A stretch of DNA of 13,033 nt from an uncultured Anaerobutyricum sp. (GTDB taxonomy: Bacteria; Bacillota; Clostridia; Lachnospirales; Lachnospiraceae). The stretch is taken from the NCBI GenBank assembly GCA_934317185.1, contig CAKREJ010000035.1, positions 1-13,033 of the forward strand, in the 5' to 3' direction. Below the pieces are notes generated by a model, which was not told where the DNA came from, ran no database searches, and saw nothing but the letters and a program-made list of their open reading frames with translations. A program made the position numbers and the translations under genes. This document shows, piece by piece, positions 5,086 through 12,864 of this stretch. Within the stretch, counting starts at the first letter, position 1. Each line of letters starts with the position of its first letter.

Positions 5086-5243
5086 CTGATTTGGATCAGA
5101 CAGGAAAATAAAAAGTAGCTTATAGCAGATGTGACCTCGGAGCAAATATTGAATGCGAGCCTTTATGCAAGCATTCAAGATGCAGCGACTACCGGCACAG
5201 ATGCTATAAGCTACTTTTTATTTTTCGTCAAGCTTCAAATCAG
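5086..5243. repeat. palindromic element 1, probable bidirectional terminator of glmM and the convergent small gene
   Basis: A perfect 23-bp inverted repeat (5105-5127 with 5202-5224) has an A-rich outer left side and T-rich outer right side, so each strand reads as a stem followed by a U-rich tract. Inside are TGTG/CACA (5130-5133 with 5196-5199) and an inner 8-bp stem TTGAATGC/GCATTCAA (5149-5156 with 5171-5178). An outer 8-bp pair CTGATTTG/CAAATCAG (5086-5093 with 5236-5243) includes the stop codon of the - strand gene. The core blocks GCAGATGTGACCTCGGAGC (5125-5143) and CAGCGACTACCGGCACAG (5183-5200) recur in element 2, in opposite orientation. The placement between convergent genes fits a shared terminator. 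Confidence 0.85.
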
Positions 5244-5509
5244 GATCTGTATTCTTCTGGAATGTCTTCTTCATCCCATACGATGACATTAAAGTTTTTC
5301 TGGCATCCCATTTTAATTCCGAAACCAAGAACGTTATCTGTAGAACGATCTAAAGCAACTTTGATAAAATCAACAGCCTCTTTATGTTTCTCTCCTACAA
5401 CGTACACGTTAAAATTTTTGGAATATTCTCCGTTTAAAACAGTAAATTCTCCATTTTTTAAATGCTCGTCACGTTCTGGAGCTAATTTTCTTTTCTCAAG
5501 TATTGTCAT
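5240..5509 (-). CDS. small hypothetical protein with internal KNFNV repeat
   Basis: An 89-residue soluble protein with no signal peptide or membrane segment, acidic at the C-terminus (DEEDIPEEYRS). A good AGGAGG lies at 5519-5524, 9 bp ahead of the ATG. The motif KNFNV occurs twice (residues 31-35 and 71-75), each followed by a hydrophobic strand ending in an acidic residue (YVVGE, IVWDE), suggesting a duplicated beta element. I do not recognise the family. The gene has its own strong promoter and a ~150-nt leader with potential secondary structure, and is convergent with glmM. Codon pattern and ribosome site make a real gene likely; function is unknown. Confidence 0.75.
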   Translation of the reverse strand: MTILEKRKLAPERDEHLKNGEFTVLNGEYSKNFNVYVVGEKHKEAVDFIKVALDRSTDNVLGFGIKMGCQKNFNVIVWDEEDIPEEYRS

Positions 5510-5533
5510 AATAGTTCTCCTCCTTAAAATTTT

Positions 5534-5651
5534 GATACCAGATTGCTACGTGTTTTGCACTCTCGCAATCTTCAAAAACATTTATAATTCACTCATTTTT
5601 CTTTGAAAAATGGCTGCTTACTCATACTTTTGAACTCTTGACCCCGGTATC
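5534..5651 (-). promoter_or_regulatory. candidate structured 5' leader (three-stem junction) of the small gene
   Basis: Read on the - strand, GAUACC (5651-5646) can pair with GGUAUC (5539-5534) just before the ribosome site, closing two hairpins. One is CAUUUUUC-AAA-GAAAAAUG (5612-5594), an 8-bp stem with a 3-nt loop. The other is AGAUUGC with GCAAUCU (5571-5565 with 5546-5540), whose 3' strand is directly adjacent to the closing stem. This three-helix layout resembles a riboswitch-like leader, but it matches no known class that I can recall. It could also be incidental pairing in AT-rich DNA. Confidence 0.35.
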
Positions 5652-5664
5652 TTCACAAATAGTA

Positions 5665-5692
5665 ATTATAACATTTATTATGAAATCTTCAA
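5665..5692 (-). promoter_or_regulatory. promoter of the small gene at 5240-5509
   Basis: On the - strand: TTGAAG (5692-5687), a 16-bp spacer, and a perfect TATAAT (5670-5665) preceded by TGT, an extended -10. Initiation is expected near 5658, giving a leader of about 150 nt. Confidence 0.65.
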
Positions 5693-5711
5693 GGAGTCTT
5701 GCAGAAGAAAA

Positions 5712-6635
5712 TTATTTTACAATTTCCTGTTCAGAATCAGTCATAAGAAAGTTTTTGCAAAGGTATCCTTCTCGCACACCATAACGGGATACCCATAATT
5801 CTTTACAATGCAGTTGTTCCATGACTTCTTTTGCAACAAGCATACCAGGGATGATGGTGTGGACACGGTCAGGGCATAATTTTAAAATATAATTACGAGA
5901 AAGAGTATTACGCTTGGTCAGAATTTTTAAAATTTTATCAAATTCTTCTTTTGTGATAATCCGATTATTTTCCTGTTTATTAAAATGATAATTTACAATG
6001 TTTAAAATGGCTCGACAAGTACCGCCCACACAGCAGACCTTTTCCGGAGACTTTTTTGGAAATTCTACCATATCAAGACGTTTGGCAATACGTTTAGAAA
6101 TTGCTTTTTGTTCTTTTTTATCTGGCCATAAACCGGAAACATGATTATGGAAAAGATTTAAAGAACCAATAGAAATACTTTGAGATTTTTTAACTTTTCC
6201 ATTTTTTATACGGACGAATTCTGTACTTCCACCACCAATATCAAACATAATTCCATTTTTTAAATCTGTCGTATATAAAGCACCATAATATCCGAGAATA
6301 CCTTCTTCGCTGCCTGCAATTACATCAACAGAAAGTCCGGTTCTTCGCTTAATAGTTTCCAGAGCCTTTTCTGTGTTTTTTATGTTACGGAGAGAAGCCG
6401 TAGCAAATACATGCATTTCATTTACTCCAAGCTGCTGTAAAAGAATCTTGAAATCAAGTAGTACGGCACAGGCCTGATTGATTCCATCATTTGACATGAT
6501 TCCATGAGAAACATATCCAGCAAGACCAGCCATATATTTTTTGGAAAATAAAGTTTCAAAACCGCCATTATTCAGTGTATTATAGAGAGAAAGACGGATT
6601 GTATTTGAACCTAAATCGACGATAGCACATTTCAT
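5712..6635 (-). CDS. Ppx/GppA-family phosphatase (exopolyphosphatase-like)
   Basis: A 307-residue cytoplasmic enzyme of the ASKHA fold. The first phosphate loop DLGSNTIRLSLY lies at residues 7-18, the catalytic acidic region GSEEGILGYYG at 108-118, and the second phosphate loop DIGGGSTEF at 132-140. A GGTCRA segment lies at 204-209 and RVHTIIPG near 257-264. The family removes terminal phosphate from polyphosphate or converts pppGpp to ppGpp. At this length it consists of the two core domains only and lacks the C-terminal HD-like extension of E. coli Ppx/GppA, a short form common in Firmicutes. AGGAGG (6644-6649) sits 8 bp before the ATG. No polyphosphate kinase gene is in the window, so polyphosphate versus pppGpp preference cannot be decided. 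Confidence 0.88.
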   Translation of the reverse strand: MKCAIVDLGSNTIRLSLYNTLNNGGFETLFSKKYMAGLAGYVSHGIMSNDGINQACAVLLDFKILLQQLGVNEMHVFATASLRNIKNTEKALETIKRRTGLSVDVIAGSEEGILGYYGALYTTDLKNGIMFDIGGGSTEFVRIKNGKVKKSQSISIGSLNLFHNHVSGLWPDKKEQKAISKRIAKRLDMVEFPKKSPEKVCCVGGTCRAILNIVNYHFNKQENNRIITKEEFDKILKILTKRNTLSRNYILKLCPDRVHTIIPGMLVAKEVMEQLHCKELWVSRYGVREGYLCKNFLMTDSEQEIVK

Positions 6636-6668
6636 AAATAAAACCTCCTAAAAATCAGTAATATTGCT

Positions 6669-6697
6669 ATAATAACAAGTGTTCGTAAAAAAAGGAA
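6669..6697 (-). promoter_or_regulatory. weak candidate promoter of the Ppx/GppA gene
   Basis: On the - strand: TATTAT (6674-6669) preceded by TGT (extended -10), and a poor -35 TTCCTT 17 bp upstream. It lies in the divergent region shared with the gene at 6795. Confidence 0.3.
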
Positions 6698-6728
6698 GAA
6701 ATATAAAAGAAGTTTTTGTAAAATGATA

Positions 6729-6757
6729 TTGCAATGAAAAAAAGGATATGGTAAGAT
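6729..6757 (+). promoter_or_regulatory. promoter of the DUF6472-like gene
   Basis: TTGCAA (6729-6734), a 17-bp spacer, and TAAGAT (6752-6757) with an extended -10 TG at 6749-6750. The promoter is flanked by an 11-bp perfect inverted repeat, TTTTTGTAAAA (6713-6723) and TTTTACAAAAA (6769-6779), which could be an operator pair or AT-rich coincidence. Confidence 0.5.
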
Positions 6758-6794
6758 AAATGTAATAATTTTACAAAAAGAAAGAGGGACGAAT

Positions 6795-6971
6795 ATGGCT
6801 ATTCAGTGTGATTTATGTGCATATTATTGGATTGATGAAGAAGATGGTACAGGGGAATGTCAGGTTAATCTGGATGAAGATGATTTAGCAAGGATGTTAT
6901 CTGGTTCATCAGATAGCTGCCCATATTTTCAGATGGATGATGAGTATAAGATAGTAAGAAAGCAGATGTAA
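6795..6971 (+). CDS. small four-cysteine protein, DUF6472-like
   Basis: A 58-residue acidic protein. Cys5-x2-Cys8, Cys22 and Cys42 (the last in SCPYF) look like a zinc or metal ligand set. The C-terminus DEYKIVRKQM and the CPYF motif match my memory of the DUF6472 family, widespread in Lachnospiraceae and of unknown function. The ATG is preceded by a modest GAGGG (6784-6788). It is divergent from the Ppx/GppA gene and convergent with the gene at 7113-7292. Family assignment is from recall, not a search. Confidence 0.75.
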   Translation: MAIQCDLCAYYWIDEEDGTGECQVNLDEDDLARMLSGSSDSCPYFQMDDEYKIVRKQM

Positions 6972-7159
6972 AGCCGGCTTGTCTGGACAACAAACGAAAT
7001 GATACAGCGACGATAGAAGTAGATACACCAAGTGTATGCAGAGAGTCTGGTAAAACAATACAGTTGCCGAAAGCTATAGGCGAAAAAGATGTGGTTGCAA
7101 TTGAAGGGTTAATTATACGAACTGATTTGTTTTTTCGTTGTATTCAAATCCTGCGATAG
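6971..7159 (+). other. orphan open frame without start codon; possible gene remnant
   Basis: The frame is open from just after a TAA at 6947-6949 to a TAG at 7157-7159 and reads sensibly (TATIEVDTPSVCRESGKTI, then QLPKAIGEKDVVAIEGLII). There is no ATG and no usable GTG or TTG near its beginning. It is in the -1 frame relative to the preceding DUF6472-like gene, and its end overlaps the 3' end of the - strand gene at 7113. It may be a decayed gene end or chance. No terminator with a U-tract is visible between the two convergent small genes; a 6-bp hairpin ATACAC/GTGTAT lies at 7023-7037. Confidence 0.25.
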
Positions 7160-7292
7160 ATAATTTTTCTTTTAACTCATTCTCGTTAATATTCATAGCT
7201 TCGCATAATGTCTCTAATGAAGAATAAAAATCTCTGAGCTTTGTATTAATAACGCTGTAAAGCATGATGGGGTCTTGTGGTAAGTGTTCCAT
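7113..7292 (-). CDS. small protein, DUF4250-like
   Basis: A 59-residue protein beginning MEHLPQDPIMLYSVINTKLR and containing DFYSSLETLCEAM, a pattern I recognise as the DUF4250 family of short Firmicutes proteins of unknown function. The helix pair after the conserved N-terminus (NENELKEKLSIAGF) looks like a small helix-turn-helix-like bundle, so nucleic-acid binding is conceivable but unproven. A weak ribosome site AAAGGA lies 11 bp ahead of the ATG. A candidate small RNA or attenuator lies upstream on the same strand. Family assignment is from recall. Confidence 0.8.
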   Translation of the reverse strand: MEHLPQDPIMLYSVINTKLRDFYSSLETLCEAMNINENELKEKLSIAGFEYNEKTNQFV

Positions 7293-7355
7293 TTTGTTTC
7301 AGGTCCTTTCAAAAATAATTATTCAAAAATGAGCGGATTAAGCTTATTATAATTT

Positions 7356-7361
7356 ATAGTA
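7356..7361 (-). promoter_or_regulatory. possible -10 box for the DUF4250-like gene
   Basis: A perfect TATAAT on the - strand, 64 bp ahead of the start codon. No convincing -35 is seen at the right distance: a T-run from the upstream terminator-like U-tract occupies it. Transcription may instead come from the promoter at 7472-7500 by read-through. Confidence 0.3.
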
Positions 7362-7367
7362 AAATAC

Positions 7368-7466
7368 AAAAAAAGAGATGCCTCATATGCTATAAAAAAT
7401 ATATATACCAAAGAATCAGCAGAGGAAGGCATCCCTTAAAACTAGAAATACGTTATCTAATTTCTA
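7368..7466 (-). ncRNA. candidate small RNA or attenuator leader with own promoter and terminator
   Basis: On the - strand, a promoter at 7500-7472 predicts a transcript starting near 7466. It begins with a perfect 10-bp hairpin, AACUAGAAAU with AUUUCUAGUU, loop of 10. A long hairpin follows, closed by GGGAUGCCU with AGGCAUCUC (7435-7427 with 7383-7375, nine pairs including one G-U), with inner pairing UGCU/AGCA. It ends at seven U (7374-7368). The length is about 100 nt. It could be an independent small RNA or the premature-termination leader of the DUF4250-like gene 75 bp downstream. I do not recognise the RNA family. Confidence 0.5.
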
Positions 7467-7471
7467 GTTAA

Positions 7472-7500
7472 ATTATATATGAAATCTTGAAAAAAAGCAA
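7472..7500 (-). promoter_or_regulatory. promoter of the candidate RNA
   Basis: On the - strand: TTGCTT (7500-7495), a 17-bp spacer and a perfect TATAAT (7477-7472). Spacing and -10 are ideal; the -35 matches three of six. Confidence 0.55.
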
Positions 7501-7514
7501 GTAAAAATGAAAAG

Positions 7515-7550
7515 AAATACTGTACTATTTTTAATACAGTATTTTTGCTT
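7515..7550. terminator. bidirectional hairpin, terminator-like
   Basis: Perfect 10-bp arms AAATACTGTA (7515-7524) and TACAGTATTT (7535-7544), loop of 10, followed on the + strand by TTGCTTTT and on the - strand by CTTTTCATTTTT. It sits between the candidate RNA promoter and the leuD-type promoter region and may insulate them. Confidence 0.5.
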
Positions 7551-7608
7551 TTATAAAATAGAATAAAGTCGAAAATTGCATAAAAATTAAAAATACATTA
7601 GTTGTGAA

Positions 7609-7720
7609 TTGACATGAATTATAAAATATAGGATTTTTGTAAAAAAAAGCAGTAAATATATAACATAAATTGGAAAAGAACGTTAATTTTCTGGACTTCA
7701 TTTTTTATTTGTAGTATTCT
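7609..7720 (+). promoter_or_regulatory. promoter region of the dual LeuDC operon
   Basis: The nearer candidate is TGGACT (7692-7697), a 17-bp spacer and TATTCT (7715-7720), each four of six matches. A second, at 7609, has a perfect TTGACA but only a poor GATTTT -10 after 17 bp. A 6-bp inverted repeat TATTCT/AGAATA (7715-7720 with 7728-7733) overlaps the nearer -10 and start region and could be an operator. No T-box leader motif was seen between 7545 and 7753. Confidence 0.4.
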
Positions 7721-7753
7721 AATGAGTAGAATATTTTATTGGAGGTAATATTT

Positions 7754-8230
7754 ATGAATAAAGTATGGAAGTTCCATAATGATGTGGATACTGACCAGAT
7801 TATCGCTTCACAGTATTTACTTTTACCAGATATTGAAGCAATGAAACAGTATACATTCGAGTCTTTAGATCCAGATTTTGCAAAGAAAGCACAGGCTGGA
7901 GATTTGATCGTAGCCGGTGAGAACTTTGGCTGTGGGTCCTCAAGAGAACAGGCTCCAAGTGTCTTAAAGGCTCTTGGAATCAAGGCCGTAATTGCGAAGT
8001 CTTTTGCCAGAATTTTTTATCGTAATTCAATTAATATCGGCCTTCCGGTTATTGTATGTAAGGAATTATATGACCATGTAGAAGATGGCGGTCAGGCTCA
8101 GCTTGATTTATCTGCCGGTACAGTTACTGTTGATGGACAGGTATTTTCCTGTACAAAGCTTCCGGAATATATGCAGAATATTTTGAATGCCGGAGGCTTG
8201 ATTGCATCTTTAAATAAGGAGGAAGCGTAA
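7754..8230 (+). CDS. LeuD-like hydro-lyase small subunit (pair 1)
   Basis: Small (swivel-domain) subunit of the isopropylmalate isomerase/homoaconitase family, 158 residues. Near the N-terminus is DVDTDQI; the conserved loop ENFGCGSSREQAP lies at 56-68, and SFARIFYRNSINIGLP follows. The substrate loop reads YLLLP (21-25), unlike the YLNTS-type of common clostridial LeuD, and the motif has REQAP where LeuD usually has REHAP. The frame is open to a TTG at 7739, but ATG 7754 is chosen because GGAGGT (7741-7746) lies 7 bp ahead. It would pair with the large subunit 3 bp downstream. The likely reaction is 3-isopropylmalate, citramalate or another C4-C6 hydroxy-diacid isomerisation; the substrate is not certain. 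Confidence 0.85.
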   Translation: MNKVWKFHNDVDTDQIIASQYLLLPDIEAMKQYTFESLDPDFAKKAQAGDLIVAGENFGCGSSREQAPSVLKALGIKAVIAKSFARIFYRNSINIGLPVIVCKELYDHVEDGGQAQLDLSAGTVTVDGQVFSCTKLPEYMQNILNAGGLIASLNKEEA

Positions 8231-8233
8231 ATT

Positions 8234-9487
8234 ATGGGAATGACTTTAGGAGAAAAGATTATCGCCCGTGCTGCCGGAGTTGATTTTGTAAAACCGAATG
8301 ATATACATACTGTTACTTTAGACCGAATGATGAGTAACGATGGAACGACTCATCTGACTGTAGATATGTATCATAACCAGTTAAAACATCCAAAGATTGC
8401 TGATAAGGATAAAGTTGTTTTTATTATGGATCACAATGTCCCTGCTGAGAATCCAAAGACAGCAGAGGCACATAAAAAGATGCGTGACTTTGCGATAGAG
8501 AATGATATTAAGCTTTATGAAGGACAGGGTGTATGCCACCAGATTATGATGGAAGACTATGTTTGTCCGGGTGAGCTGATTTTTGGAGCAGATTCTCATA
8601 CAACTTCCTACGGTGCTCTTGGTGCATTTGGTACAGGTGTTGGATGTACAGACTTTTTATATGCTATGACTACAGGAACTTCCTGGGTCATGGTTCCGGA
8701 AACCATTCGTTTTAATTTACATGGTAAGTTAAAAGAAGGTGTCTATCCAAGAGATTTGATTCTTACGATTATCGGAGATATCGGAGCCAATGGAGCCAAT
8801 TATAAGATTATGGAATTTGCAGGCGATGGTGCACATGAGCTTTCTATTGATGATCGTATGGTTCTGTGTAATCTTACAGTAGAGGCTGGGGCTAAAGCAG
8901 GAATTGTGGAGCCGGATGAAAAGGTTGTAGAATATTGTAAAGCACATGGTCGTGAGGCCGTACATATGTTTAAAAGTGATGAGGATGCTCATTTCTGTGA
9001 AGTATACGATTATGATCTGAGCAAGATTGAGCCAGTTGTGGTTCGTCCGGACTTTGTAGATAATTTTGCACTTCTTAAAGAGGTAAAAGAAGAAAAAATA
9101 GCTATTGATGAAGCCTTTTTAGGTTCTTGCAACAATGGCCGCATCGATGATCTGCGAGTTGCTGCTAAGATTGTAAAAGGGAAACAGGTTGATCCAAAGG
9201 TTCGTTTTATTGTAGCACCTGCTTCAAAAGCAGTATATATTCAGGCATTGGAAGAAGGAATTATTACTACACTGATGGAAGCTGGAGCGATGGTTATGAA
9301 TTGTAACTGTTCTGTATGCTGGGGAAGTTGTCAGGGAGTTATCGGTGAGAATGAAGTACTGATTTCTACCGGAACAAGGAACTTTAAAGGGCGTGCAGGG
9401 GCACCAAGTTCAAAGGTTTACCTGGCAAGTTCGGCTACAGTAGCAGCTTCTGCTCTTGCAGGGTATATTACAGGACCGGAAGCTTAA
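8234..9487 (+). CDS. LeuC/aconitase-like hydro-lyase large subunit with atypical cluster motif (pair 1)
   Basis: A 417-residue [4Fe-4S] subunit of the short, archaeal-type IPMI/homoaconitase family. GADSHTTSYG (118-127) is family-typical. The cluster ligands should be Cys299 in GSCNNGR (usually GSCTNGR) and Cys359/Cys362 in CSVC, where the family has CGPC. Extra cysteines flank this at 357 and 366 (NCNCSVCWGSC), and the usual Pro-Gly before CGPC is missing. The end reads TRNFKGRAG and VYLASSATVAASALAGYI, family-like. AGGAGG (8217-8222) lies 11 bp before ATG 8234; the ATG at 8240 is an alternative. The cysteine count keeps the three ligands, so activity is plausible. The substrate may differ from isopropylmalate, for example dimethylmalate or citramalate; this is inference. 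Confidence 0.85.
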   Translation: MGMTLGEKIIARAAGVDFVKPNDIHTVTLDRMMSNDGTTHLTVDMYHNQLKHPKIADKDKVVFIMDHNVPAENPKTAEAHKKMRDFAIENDIKLYEGQGVCHQIMMEDYVCPGELIFGADSHTTSYGALGAFGTGVGCTDFLYAMTTGTSWVMVPETIRFNLHGKLKEGVYPRDLILTIIGDIGANGANYKIMEFAGDGAHELSIDDRMVLCNLTVEAGAKAGIVEPDEKVVEYCKAHGREAVHMFKSDEDAHFCEVYDYDLSKIEPVVVRPDFVDNFALLKEVKEEKIAIDEAFLGSCNNGRIDDLRVAAKIVKGKQVDPKVRFIVAPASKAVYIQALEEGIITTLMEAGAMVMNCNCSVCWGSCQGVIGENEVLISTGTRNFKGRAGAPSSKVYLASSATVAASALAGYITGPEA

Positions 9488-9537
9488 AGTATTCACAACA
9501 ACAAAATCGTTTTATTATAGAAAGAGGTGCTTATATT

Positions 9538-10029
9538 ATGGAACAATTTACCGGAAAGGTATGGGTGCTTGGAGATGATATTGATACAGATATTATCATT
9601 CCAACAGAATATCTGGCACTGCCTACCGTGGAAGATATGAAGCAGTATGGATTTTCTCCGTTAAGACCGGAGCTTGCAAGTCAAATTCAGGAAGGGGATA
9701 TTATTGTTGCCGGAAAGAATTTTGGCTGCGGTTCTTCAAGAGAGCAGGCTCCTGAAATTATTAAAGCATTGAAAGTGAAGTGTGTTATTGCTAAGTCATA
9801 TGCCCGTATTTTCTTTAGAAACTCCATTAATAACGGACTTTTACTTATTGAGAACAGTGATATTCAGGATGTGATCAAAGAGGGAGATGACCTCATCGTA
9901 AATATGGGTGAGTCTTTGGAATTTGATGGAAAGACTTATCCAATACACCCACTGCCAGATAATCTGATGGATATTATCAATGCAGGGGGACTTGTAAAAG
10001 CAATGCAGAAACGTAATGGAATTATTTAG
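9538..10029 (+). CDS. LeuD-like hydro-lyase small subunit (pair 2)
   Basis: A 163-residue swivel-domain subunit, clearly related to the first copy. It has DDIDTDIIIP at the N-terminus, KNFGCGSSREQAP (60-72) and SYARIFFRNSINNG. The substrate loop is YLALP (25-29) rather than YLLLP, a change at the family's specificity position. GAGGTG (9524-9529) precedes the ATG by 8 bp, in a 50-bp gap after the first large subunit. It is the partner of the large subunit 9 bp downstream. Substrate is uncertain, as for pair 1. Confidence 0.85.
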   Translation: MEQFTGKVWVLGDDIDTDIIIPTEYLALPTVEDMKQYGFSPLRPELASQIQEGDIIVAGKNFGCGSSREQAPEIIKALKVKCVIAKSYARIFFRNSINNGLLLIENSDIQDVIKEGDDLIVNMGESLEFDGKTYPIHPLPDNLMDIINAGGLVKAMQKRNGII

Positions 10030-10038
10030 GAGGCAGTT

Positions 10039-11280
10039 ATGGGAAGTACATTAATTGAGAAAATTATCGAAAAAAACACTGGCCTTTCTAAAGTAACTCC
10101 GGGTCAGATTGTTACAGTAAATGTTGACAGAGTAATGATTCATGATATTTTTATTCCATTTGTGGCAGAAAAGTTCGAAGAAATGGGATTTAAAAAGCTA
10201 TGGGATGCAGATAAGGTTGTACTGATTTATGATCATCTTGTTCCGACAAGTGCAGTAGAAGATGTCCGTCATTTTAAAATTGGGGATGCGTTTGCGGACA
10301 AATATGGTTTAACACATGTGCACAGACGTGATGGTATCTGTCATCAGCTTATGACAGAAGCTGGTTATGCAAAACCGGGAAATATTGTCTTTGGTACAGA
10401 TTCTCACACAACAACTTATGGATGTGTAGGATGTTTTTCTTCCGGTATTGGTTATACGGAGATGGCTTCTATTCTTGGAACCGGAGAGATGTGGATTCGT
10501 GTCCCGGAAACAATAAAGGTGGTTATTGACGGAACACTTCCGGCTAATGTAACAGCTAAAGATGTGATTTTACGTCTTATTGGCGATCTTCGTGCAGACG
10601 GTGCAACCTATAAGGCACTTGAAATTACAGGTTCAGCGGTAGATAAGATGAGTGTTGCCTCAAGAATGACAATTTCTAATATGGCAATCGAGGCTGGAGC
10701 AAAGTGCTGTTTATTCCGTCCAGATGAGAAAACGTGTGAATACTCAGAAGTAAAGATGGAAGATGTAAACTGGCTTTATGGTGATGAAGATGCAACGTAT
10801 TGTCGTATAATGACATATCAGGCCGAAGAACTTGTACCAGTATGTGCCTGTCCTTCACAGGTAGATAATATTCATCCGGTAAGCGAGCTTGTTGGAACAG
10901 ACATTGATCAGGTATTTATTGGTTCCTGTACGAATGGACGTTTAGAAGATCTGGCAGTGGCCGCAAAAATTCTTGAAGGAAAGACAGTTTCCTGCCGTAC
11001 GATCATAACTCCGGCCAGCCGCAAGATTTATATCGAGGCAGTCAAAGCGGGTTACATGGCAACTTTGGCAAAAGCAGGAGCAATTATTACCCAACCGGGT
11101 TGTGGATTATGTTGTGGACGTGCAGGAGGAATCCTTTGTGATGGAGAAAAGGTACTTGCAACCAATAATCGTAACTTCTTAGGGCGAATGGGAACATCCA
11201 AAGTAGGAATTTACTTAGGATCTCCGGCAACAGCAGCTACCTCTGCAATACATGGGAAAATTACACTTCCTTCCATGTAG
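10039..11280 (+). CDS. LeuC/aconitase-like hydro-lyase large subunit (pair 2)
   Basis: A 413-residue [4Fe-4S] dehydratase subunit. GTDSHTTTYG starts at residue 119. The ligand cysteines are Cys297 in GSCTNGR and Cys355/Cys358 in PGCGLCCG, close to the canonical PGCGPCLG with one extra Cys (359). It ends with NRNFLGRMG and IYLGSPATAATSAIHGKI. Its motifs are nearer to classical LeuC than those of the first copy, so it is the better candidate for true isopropylmalate or citramalate isomerase. AGGAGG (10028-10033) overlaps the preceding stop codon, 5 bp before the ATG. No leuA or leuB lies in the window. Confidence 0.88.
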   Translation: MGSTLIEKIIEKNTGLSKVTPGQIVTVNVDRVMIHDIFIPFVAEKFEEMGFKKLWDADKVVLIYDHLVPTSAVEDVRHFKIGDAFADKYGLTHVHRRDGICHQLMTEAGYAKPGNIVFGTDSHTTTYGCVGCFSSGIGYTEMASILGTGEMWIRVPETIKVVIDGTLPANVTAKDVILRLIGDLRADGATYKALEITGSAVDKMSVASRMTISNMAIEAGAKCCLFRPDEKTCEYSEVKMEDVNWLYGDEDATYCRIMTYQAEELVPVCACPSQVDNIHPVSELVGTDIDQVFIGSCTNGRLEDLAVAAKILEGKTVSCRTIITPASRKIYIEAVKAGYMATLAKAGAIITQPGCGLCCGRAGGILCDGEKVLATNNRNFLGRMGTSKVGIYLGSPATAATSAIHGKITLPSM

Positions 11281-11286
11281 AATACT

Positions 11287-11445
11287 AATTTATTAGTAAC
11301 GGACGAAAAATAAAAAAGAATATAATAGCATCTGTGCCAGTAGTCGCTGTGTGAAGAATACTCGTAAAAACTCGCATTCTTTACTCGCTCCGAGGTCACA
11401 TCTGCTATTATATTCTTTTTTGATTTTTCTGTCTGTTATTAAATT
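11287..11445. repeat. palindromic element 2, probable terminator of the LeuDC operon
   Basis: A perfect 19-bp inverted repeat (11312-11330 with 11403-11421) flanks a core that is the reverse complement of element 1. GCTCCGAGGTCACATCTGC (11387-11405) is 19/19 identical to its counterpart, and the 22-nt block 11328-11349 matches 21/22. The outer arm sequence differs from element 1 but pairs with itself. The inner stem AAGAATGC/GTATTCTT (on the - strand) also differs yet still pairs. It lies just after the LeuC stop codon at 11278-11280. Confidence 0.85.
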
Positions 11446-11627
11446 GAAGATGAAAATTAAATTAGTGGAGAGAGAAAGGGGAATCTCCAGTAGATTATGG
11501 CAGTCGATCGGAGAAAATCTTCAGTAAACAAAAAGTGTCTAATCTTTTCACTAAATCAGTATCGGGAAGAAAATATGTGAAATAAAGAGCACACATTTCC
11601 GTGTAGCCCCTTCTTCCATCTCAGCAT
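11446..11627. other. gene-free spacer between elements 2 and 3
   Basis: No convincing gene. Short reading frames on the - strand run into element 3 and look spurious. The segment from 11597 to 11627 (ACACATTTCCGTGTAGCC and onward) may belong to a composite repeat with element 3, but no second copy is in the window. Confidence 0.4.
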
Positions 11628-11812
11628 CAAATACTAATTTACCCAAGTGACGGACGAAAAATAAAAAATAAATACTAGTAAAATGTGCCAGTAATCGCTG
11701 CGTATGGAATGCGAACCTTTTCGGTGAGCATTCCATACGCAGCGACTACTGGCACAGATGTTACCTGCTTCTTTTTTCTTTTTCGTCCGTGATTCAAACA
11801 AATTAGTATTTG
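11628..11812. repeat. palindromic element 3, near-perfect long inverted repeat at the pyruvate kinase-like 3' end
   Basis: Three nested paired segments are seen. The outer 13-bp CAAATACTAATTT (11628-11640 with 11800-11812) runs through the - strand stop codon. The middle 12-bp is ACGGACGAAAAA (11650-11661 with 11779-11790). The core of 29 bp has one mismatch (11684-11712 with 11728-11756) around a 15-nt loop. Both core halves are of the CAGCGACTACTGGCACAG type, whereas elements 1 and 2 have one such half and one GACCTCGGAGC half. The left flank AATACTAATTT then ACGGACGAAAAATAAAAAA is shared with element 2. Probably the terminator for the - strand gene. Confidence 0.85.
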
Positions 11813-12864
11813 AGAGCTTCTTCACTTGTTTGTGCAAGTATTTTCATTGCTTCCTCGGGGTAAGCACCGATAGCTGTTTCTCCGGTTAACATTAATGAGG
11901 ACGCTCCATCTAAAACTGCCTGAAAGATATCTGTCACTTCTGCTCTTGTAGGGACAGGGTTTTGTTCCATAGAAGCAAGGAACTGTGTTACGACCATAAA
12001 TGGTTTCTTTGCATGAAGGCAGGTTATTGCGATTCTTTTTTGGATAGCAGGAAGTTTAGGTAAAGGTACTGCATTTCCAAGATCTCCTCGGGCAATGACA
12101 ATTTCATCACAAAAAGGAAGAAGAGAAGGGAGGTGTTCAACACCTTCTAAGGATTCTATTTTGGCAAAAATACGAATATGTGCCATATTATTAGCCAGCA
12201 ATTCTTTGCGTAGTGTAATCAAATCGTCTGCGTTTCTTACAAAGGGAAGCATAACACCGGTAACATGGTATTTACGAAGCAGCTTTAAATTTTTTTTGTC
12301 AGTTTCTGTGAGAACAGGAAGAGGGATACTGACTCCGGTAATAGCGATACTTTTCTTTGAAGTTAAATCCCCACCTTTTATTACTTTTCCACAAAAAATA
12401 TCTTCTTCTAAAGGTGTAGATAATTTTAAAAGGATTTTTCCATCATTTAATTTTACTTCCTGTCCTTCATTAAAATGGGAAAAAAGTATTTCCGGGCAGG
12501 GAATAATAGAGAATTCATCTTCGCCTTCTAAAATACGAGAAAAAATATCAGAATTTTTTTTCTTCTTATTAAATGATTTTTCCGATATAAGAAAAATAAT
12601 ATCACCTTCACAAAGAGACAATGGAAAATCCAGTGTACCAATTCGAAGTTCAGGTCCTTGCAGGTCAACAAGTAGCTCAGGTATGATATGAAGACGTTCG
12701 GAAACTTCATGGTATTGCCGGAGCCAGTTCTCACAGTCATCAAGATTGCTGTGAGAAAGATTAAGTCGCATACCAGTCATTCCTGCCAAAAACATTGCCT
12801 GTATTTTTTCTTTTGAAGCACAGGCAGGACCGAGTGTTCCGTATAAGTGAAGAGAATGTTTCAT
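11803..12864 (-). CDS. pyruvate kinase-like protein lacking the C-terminal domain
   Basis: A 353-residue protein with the A and B domains of pyruvate kinase. Present are TLGPA (10-14), RLNLSHSN (33-40), VDLQGPELR (66-74), KIESLEGV (235-242), ARGDLGN (258-264), VVTQFLASME (291-300), PTRAEVTDI (305-313) and TGETAIGAYPEEAM (327-340). Catalytic-type residues Arg33, Asn35, Ser37, Asp67, Lys235, Glu237, Asp261 and Thr293 are retained, but the usual TKGPE Lys is Gln69. Normal pyruvate kinases exceed 460 residues; this one stops after the barrel, so the allosteric C-domain is absent. The end is not a visible frameshift. It may be a divergent paralogue with altered regulation or activity. AGGAGG (12873-12878) lies 8 bp before the ATG. 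Confidence 0.85.
   Translation of the reverse strand: MKHSLHLYGTLGPACASKEKIQAMFLAGMTGMRLNLSHSNLDDCENWLRQYHEVSERLHIIPELLVDLQGPELRIGTLDFPLSLCEGDIIFLISEKSFNKKKKNSDIFSRILEGEDEFSIIPCPEILFSHFNEGQEVKLNDGKILLKLSTPLEEDIFCGKVIKGGDLTSKKSIAITGVSIPLPVLTETDKKNLKLLRKYHVTGVMLPFVRNADDLITLRKELLANNMAHIRIFAKIESLEGVEHLPSLLPFCDEIVIARGDLGNAVPLPKLPAIQKRIAITCLHAKKPFMVVTQFLASMEQNPVPTRAEVTDIFQAVLDGASSLMLTGETAIGAYPEEAMKILAQTSEEALKY

Follow-up and report, generated by a model that had tools for sequence, protein, structure and literature searches.

Three Related Palindromes at Gene 3′ Ends

The DNA analyzed here, a stretch of 13,033 nt that we call the window, contains three related imperfect palindromes, E1, E2, and E3, which are DNA repeats able to form hairpins. 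We read them, with a probability of roughly 0.55, as a lineage-limited, MITE-like family of palindromic repeats, about 158–185 bp long, that sits at gene 3′ ends and may act there as a two-way terminator. E1 (5086–5243, +) lies between glmM (+, ends 5038), which is 47 nt away, and an 89-aa ORF (−, 5240–5509). E2 (about 11285–11465, −) follows the 3′ end of leuC2 (+, ends 11280), and its − strand presents the parts in the same order as the + strand of E1. E3 (11628–11812, +) lies at the 3′ end of a pyruvate-kinase-like gene (pyk-like; −, 11803–12864).

The + strand of E1 reads, in order, CTGATTTG, CAGACAGGAAAATAAAAA, an outer stem arm, the left core GCAGATGTGACCTCGGAGC (5127–5145, +), an inner hairpin TTGAATGC/GCATTCAA (5149–5178, +), the right core GCAGCGACTACCGGCACAGATGC (5182–5204, +), the second stem arm, TTTTTATTTTTCGTC, and CAAATCAG. 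A first-pass annotation of this DNA had described core blocks common to the elements, and these are present: The left core of E1 (+) recurs letter for letter in E2 (−), and CAGCGACTACYGGCACA occurs in all three. With up to three mismatches allowed, CAGCGACTACYGGCACA is found at four places in the window, every one within an element (5183–5199, +; 11333–11349, −; 11740–11756, +; and 11684–11700, −, with one mismatch), as against a mean of 0.01 and a maximum of 1 in 200 shuffles. The cores are common to E1, E2, and E3 far above chance.

The motif CTRATTTR stands at all six outer ends of the three elements, facing inward and accompanied by inner A-rich repeats; three of its nine occurrences in the window lie away from element ends. 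In E2 the outer copies are at 11285 and 11465, so the element probably extends to 11465 rather than ending within the 11287–11445 first assigned to it, the 8-mer at 11465 having been picked after inspection further outward. In being short, noncoding, and bounded by terminal inverted repeats, the elements match MITEs. Inspection by eye showed no target duplication at E1, E2, or E3, and the window contains no transposase.

Gene Neighborhood and Stop Codons

Three of the six element ends lie at or near the ends of reading frames. The outer 8-mer of E1, CTGATTTG (5236–5243, −), contains the TGA stop (5240–5242) of the 89-aa ORF, and that of E3, CTAATTTG (11799–11806, −), contains the TAA stop (11803–11805) of the pyk-like gene; two ends thus contain a neighbor's stop, and the third, in E2, begins 4 nt beyond the stop of leuC2. 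The pyk-like protein ends in ALKY here and in its relative P0001, and in ALRFKY in P0002. The tail KY, encoded by the repeat end AAATACTAA, is found in 2 of 13 close relatives (P0001–P0013), whereas P0003–P0013 (11 of the 13 read) carry other tails, such as LRFKIAKF. This pattern suggests that the element end shortened the pyk-like reading frame.

Facing genes do flank all three elements, as the first-pass annotation held, but in two gaps rather than three: E1 lies in one, between glmM and the 89-aa ORF, and E2 and E3 share another, between leuC2 and the pyk-like gene. Because the 89-aa ORF has no Pfam or NCBIfam match, convergence at E1 rests on an unnamed ORF. A possible third convergent gap in the window (between predicted ORFs of 58 and 59 aa, 6971/7113) lacks the element.

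Several other features of the window were recorded. At 7122–7153, at the 3′ end of the 59-aa ORF, an element-end look-alike reads CTGATTTG...CGTTG...CAAATC; we take it to be, probably, coding sequence of that ORF. Directly upstream of the 89-aa ORF, at 5533–5652 (−), is an Rfam Clostridiales-1 RNA (RF01699), which scores 62 bits where 48 is the cut-off. The gene run at 7739–11280 encodes, twice in succession, a small and a large subunit of the LeuD/LeuC (aconitase) family, and a 36-bp tandem repeat at 22–318 codes for a Gly/Ser/Glu/Thr-rich stretch of an HlyD-like adaptor protein. The pyk-like gene (11803–12864, −) encodes a pyruvate kinase barrel of 353 aa, which stops at the point where a C-terminal domain normally begins and scores under the NCBIfam pyruvate kinase cut-off.

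Folding and Recovery of E3 by a Covariance Model

With RNA and with DNA parameters alike, all three elements fold much more stably than their own shuffles. RNA folding z scores were −10.2 (+) and −9.2 (−) for E1, −6.7 (+) and −9.5 (−) for E2, and −16.6 for E3, which was folded as RNA on the + strand alone.

A covariance model, R1, was trained on E1 and E2 only. It scored its two training sequences at 137.5 bits (E1, 5108–5221, +) and 127.5 bits (E2, 11311–11422, −) and recovered E3, outside the training set, at 11661–11779 (+) with an E value of 1.5e-9. Elsewhere in the window, with both strands of the three elements excluded, the best match had an E value of 0.09.

Compensating Stem Changes: Selection or Copying

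Across 37 aligned pairs, E1 and E2 differ on both sides of seven pairs and break none: Seven left and eight right positions have changed, every left change has a partner change, and the eighth right-side change yields a G-U pair. The reported change of the inner stem with pairing kept is present, one pair having gone from G-C to G-U. The outer stems, described in the same place as unrelated yet perfectly paired, do keep their pairing in E1 and E2 but are related (20 of 24 pairs the same, 4 changed on both sides), and the outer stem of E3 is interrupted, so its pairing is imperfect.

The double changes between E1 and E2 have P = 7.8e-7 under independence, and slid pairings gave zero or one double change; a shuffle control, however, reached the observed value in 6 of 500 trials. 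The test compares only two sequences under a structure drawn from those same two, and it therefore favors that structure.

E3 points to a second route to matched arms. Both of its arms are of the right-core type: On the left, E3 has not the GACCTCGGAGC core but an inverted copy of its own right core, so that the two inner arms agree as inverted copies in 28 of 29 letters, and its outer stem is left unconverted. E3 thus looks like a product of arm-to-arm conversion, in which an inverted right core has taken the place of the left one. Template switching is described as able to create, repair, and maintain stems (PMC8794818). Since E3 has the look of such copying, double changes alone do not show a selected fold, and the matching stem changes may come partly from DNA copying between arms. 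The family with kept pairing is real; the further step in the original claim, from compensating changes to a signature of selection for structure, is not secure. The cores of E1 and E2, which are nearly identical, speak for constraint on the cores or for a recent common origin.

Strand Preference and a Possible Structured RNA

Strand asymmetry in the elements bears on a different proposal, that E1 (+), E2 (−), and E3 (+) encode a strand-specific structured RNA—a 3′ UTR element or small RNA—whose conserved asymmetric internal loop would be the functional part. On these strands, tandem G-A mismatches adjoin the cores (GCA-GA-UGUG/CACA-GA-UGC, by eye), where the opposite strand would have U-C, and the inner hairpin has the form GC-GA...GA-G in E2 and E3, with AA on one side in E1 (also by eye). 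The G-A strand has the lower folding energy in both E1 (−64.6 vs. −57.8) and E2 (−53.6 vs. −46.9), and the similarity of both cores between these two elements fits an RNA as well. Against this, no Rfam family reaches its gathering score within the elements; permissive matches consist of microRNA and unrelated models, the best at E = 0.00028 and far under the cut-offs; and the left core is lost in E3. The G-A strand preference keeps a structured RNA in play and does not show one; we consider this reading unlikely. We think it quite improbable that the two ideas combine, in a mobile repeat that would carry a strand-specific structured RNA, with tandem G-A helices on either side of the conserved asymmetric internal loop, to gene 3′ ends and serve there simultaneously as a stop codon, as a terminator in both directions, and as an RNA element.

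Termination

By eye, A-runs precede and T-runs follow the stems on both strands. A consensus terminator scan called none in either element region, a result that speaks against the terminator part of the MITE-like reading. The scan requires a loop of 3–8; these hairpins have none of that size and may for that reason escape it.

The same A- and T-runs, together with the placement of all three elements between facing genes, would also fit ordinary bidirectional terminators that share ancestry through duplication or conversion and are not mobile. Termination does not need conserved cores or outer ends, though, and six other contigs carry putative copies of a similar kind; with the scan's failure to call any, this leaves the explanation rather unlikely. 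The first-pass annotation had offered a palindromic mobile element and a bidirectional terminator family as separate options. The two are mutually compatible, mobility and function each being an inference here.

Copies on Other Contigs

Three elements lie in 13 kb of DNA. An open frame through E1, used as a query, matched four proteins, all of them short, with E values between 1.5e-13 and 2e-11, and the alignment of the opposite orientation matched two (E = 6e-13 and 4e-8). All six come from one source, and we read these metagenomic small ORFs as translated element copies; at the protein level they point to six further copies on other contigs. Both arms were tested in two of the six, P0121 and P0125: Their codons permit pairing without a break for 25 letters in P0121 and 32 in P0125, which 0 of 2,000 shuffles reproduced in each case. 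At one left-arm position where E1 has G, P0121 can have only C or T; the right codon agrees with this, a purine being required there if the adjoining pair holds. The first-pass annotation had named a lack of further copies in the genome as grounds for abandoning the idea; given six putative copies, those grounds do not apply.

Searches of sampled genomes with R1 (E 0.1) gave 0 of 394 for the order Lachnospirales and 0 of 57 for the family; these counts show little, as the filters were stricter and there was no positive control, and the host group was probably not in the sample. One of four genus genomes gave a 44-nt match (E = 0.05) that we judged to be chance. Element parts had no match among plasmids, phages, and E. 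coli except one of 33 bases (E = 0.5) on a Photobacterium plasmid. An exact-core scan returned 35 loci among genome contigs and 23 among viral contigs, with one match apiece; we took these as chance because GACCTCGG appeared in 0 of 58 within the printed context. A gapped-core scan of viral sequences gave two stretches, both lacking the element's long stem by eye, and two other viral patterns gave none each. A peptide pattern matched 40 stretches, of which 0 were confirmed. Sites resembling attC were dismissed by eye, by comparison with the attC motif.

Neighboring proteins were used as queries as well. The pyk-like protein had matches in 224 of 291 class genomes (best 55%) and, at E 1e-85, in 2 of 200 and 2 of 398 family genomes. 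Its relative P0003 gave 0 of 329 genomes at 1e-120, probably mostly ones sampled before, and P0002 gave 3 of 57 at 1e-70 (best 54%). Identity of the pyk-like protein was 86% to large clusters, 65% to a protein named Eubacterium sp., and 82% over 57% to P0107, a fragment named Anaerostipes hadrus; by this one protein, the host is probably close to A. hadrus. GlmM matched in 3 of 3 genomes at 57–59% and, at 1e-185, in 26 of 260 (best 77%); LeuC1 matched in 6 of 6 (best 43%). No element was seen by eye in the stretch downstream of eight GlmM loci.

Relation to Known Repeats

Mostly by description, the family resembles ERIC, YPAL, bcr1, and SPRITE. ERIC (IRU/RU-1, 127 bp) and YPAL (RU-2, about 168 bp) are described as enterobacterial palindromic intergenic repeats of similar size that form long stem-loops and are regarded as MITE-like (PMC2229807); they differ in host phylum, and YPAL is known here by description. 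Sequence comparison with ERIC was made through E. coli genomes, where E1 had no match (blastn, E 0.01). The bcr1 repeat of the Bacillus cereus group (147–167 bp), compared by description, is likewise a lineage-limited structured intergenic repeat with mobile-element features (PMC2267715, PMC6542083), and has been linked to a TTTAT motif rather than to CTRATTTR ends (PMC6542083). SPRITE, BOX, and RUP of Streptococcus pneumoniae, also compared by description, are likewise small; SPRITE is said to resemble a Rho-independent terminator, and RUP differs in being 107 bp (PMC10969869, PMC2229807).

The elements also share with GTAG/CGTC REPs, as these are described, a palindromic form and a place mostly 3′ of genes, between convergent or unidirectional genes (PMC3733652). 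Imperfect hairpins at gene 3′ ends, and the letters CGTC and GTAG in E1, would suit REP-like single-stranded hairpins mobilized by a Y1 (RAYT-type) transposase. REPs are reported, however, as units of 20–40 bp, one end of which bears an unpaired tag (PMC3733652), neither of which the elements show: Their unit is about 158–185 bp, and their CGTC letters lie in paired arms. This origin is very unlikely. In the main text of that paper, "firmicutes" and "clostridi" do not occur.

The family is apparently new and lineage-limited, the features tested directly being those of ERIC (via E. coli genomes) and REP, neither of which it displayed. Literature searches that paired palindromes, MITEs, or insertion sequences with Anaerostipes found nothing, and the matches listed by a broader search were microbiome studies.

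Discussion

If the MITE-like reading is correct, the repeats would spread as nonautonomous elements. Copies would survive at gene 3′ ends because their terminal repeats either provide a stop codon or come after one, and also because the succession of A-run, stem, and T-run can terminate transcription intrinsically on both strands. The stems would drift in sequence, and their pairing would be restored in part by arm-to-arm template switching, as E3 suggests, and in part, perhaps, because the hairpin is under selection.

E3 carries a caution: Copying from one arm to the other can produce compensating stem changes, which by themselves do not prove that an RNA fold is under selection. Repeats of this kind are known in other bacteria; a palindromic family among the relatives of a common butyrate producer of the gut would extend them to the Lachnospiraceae.
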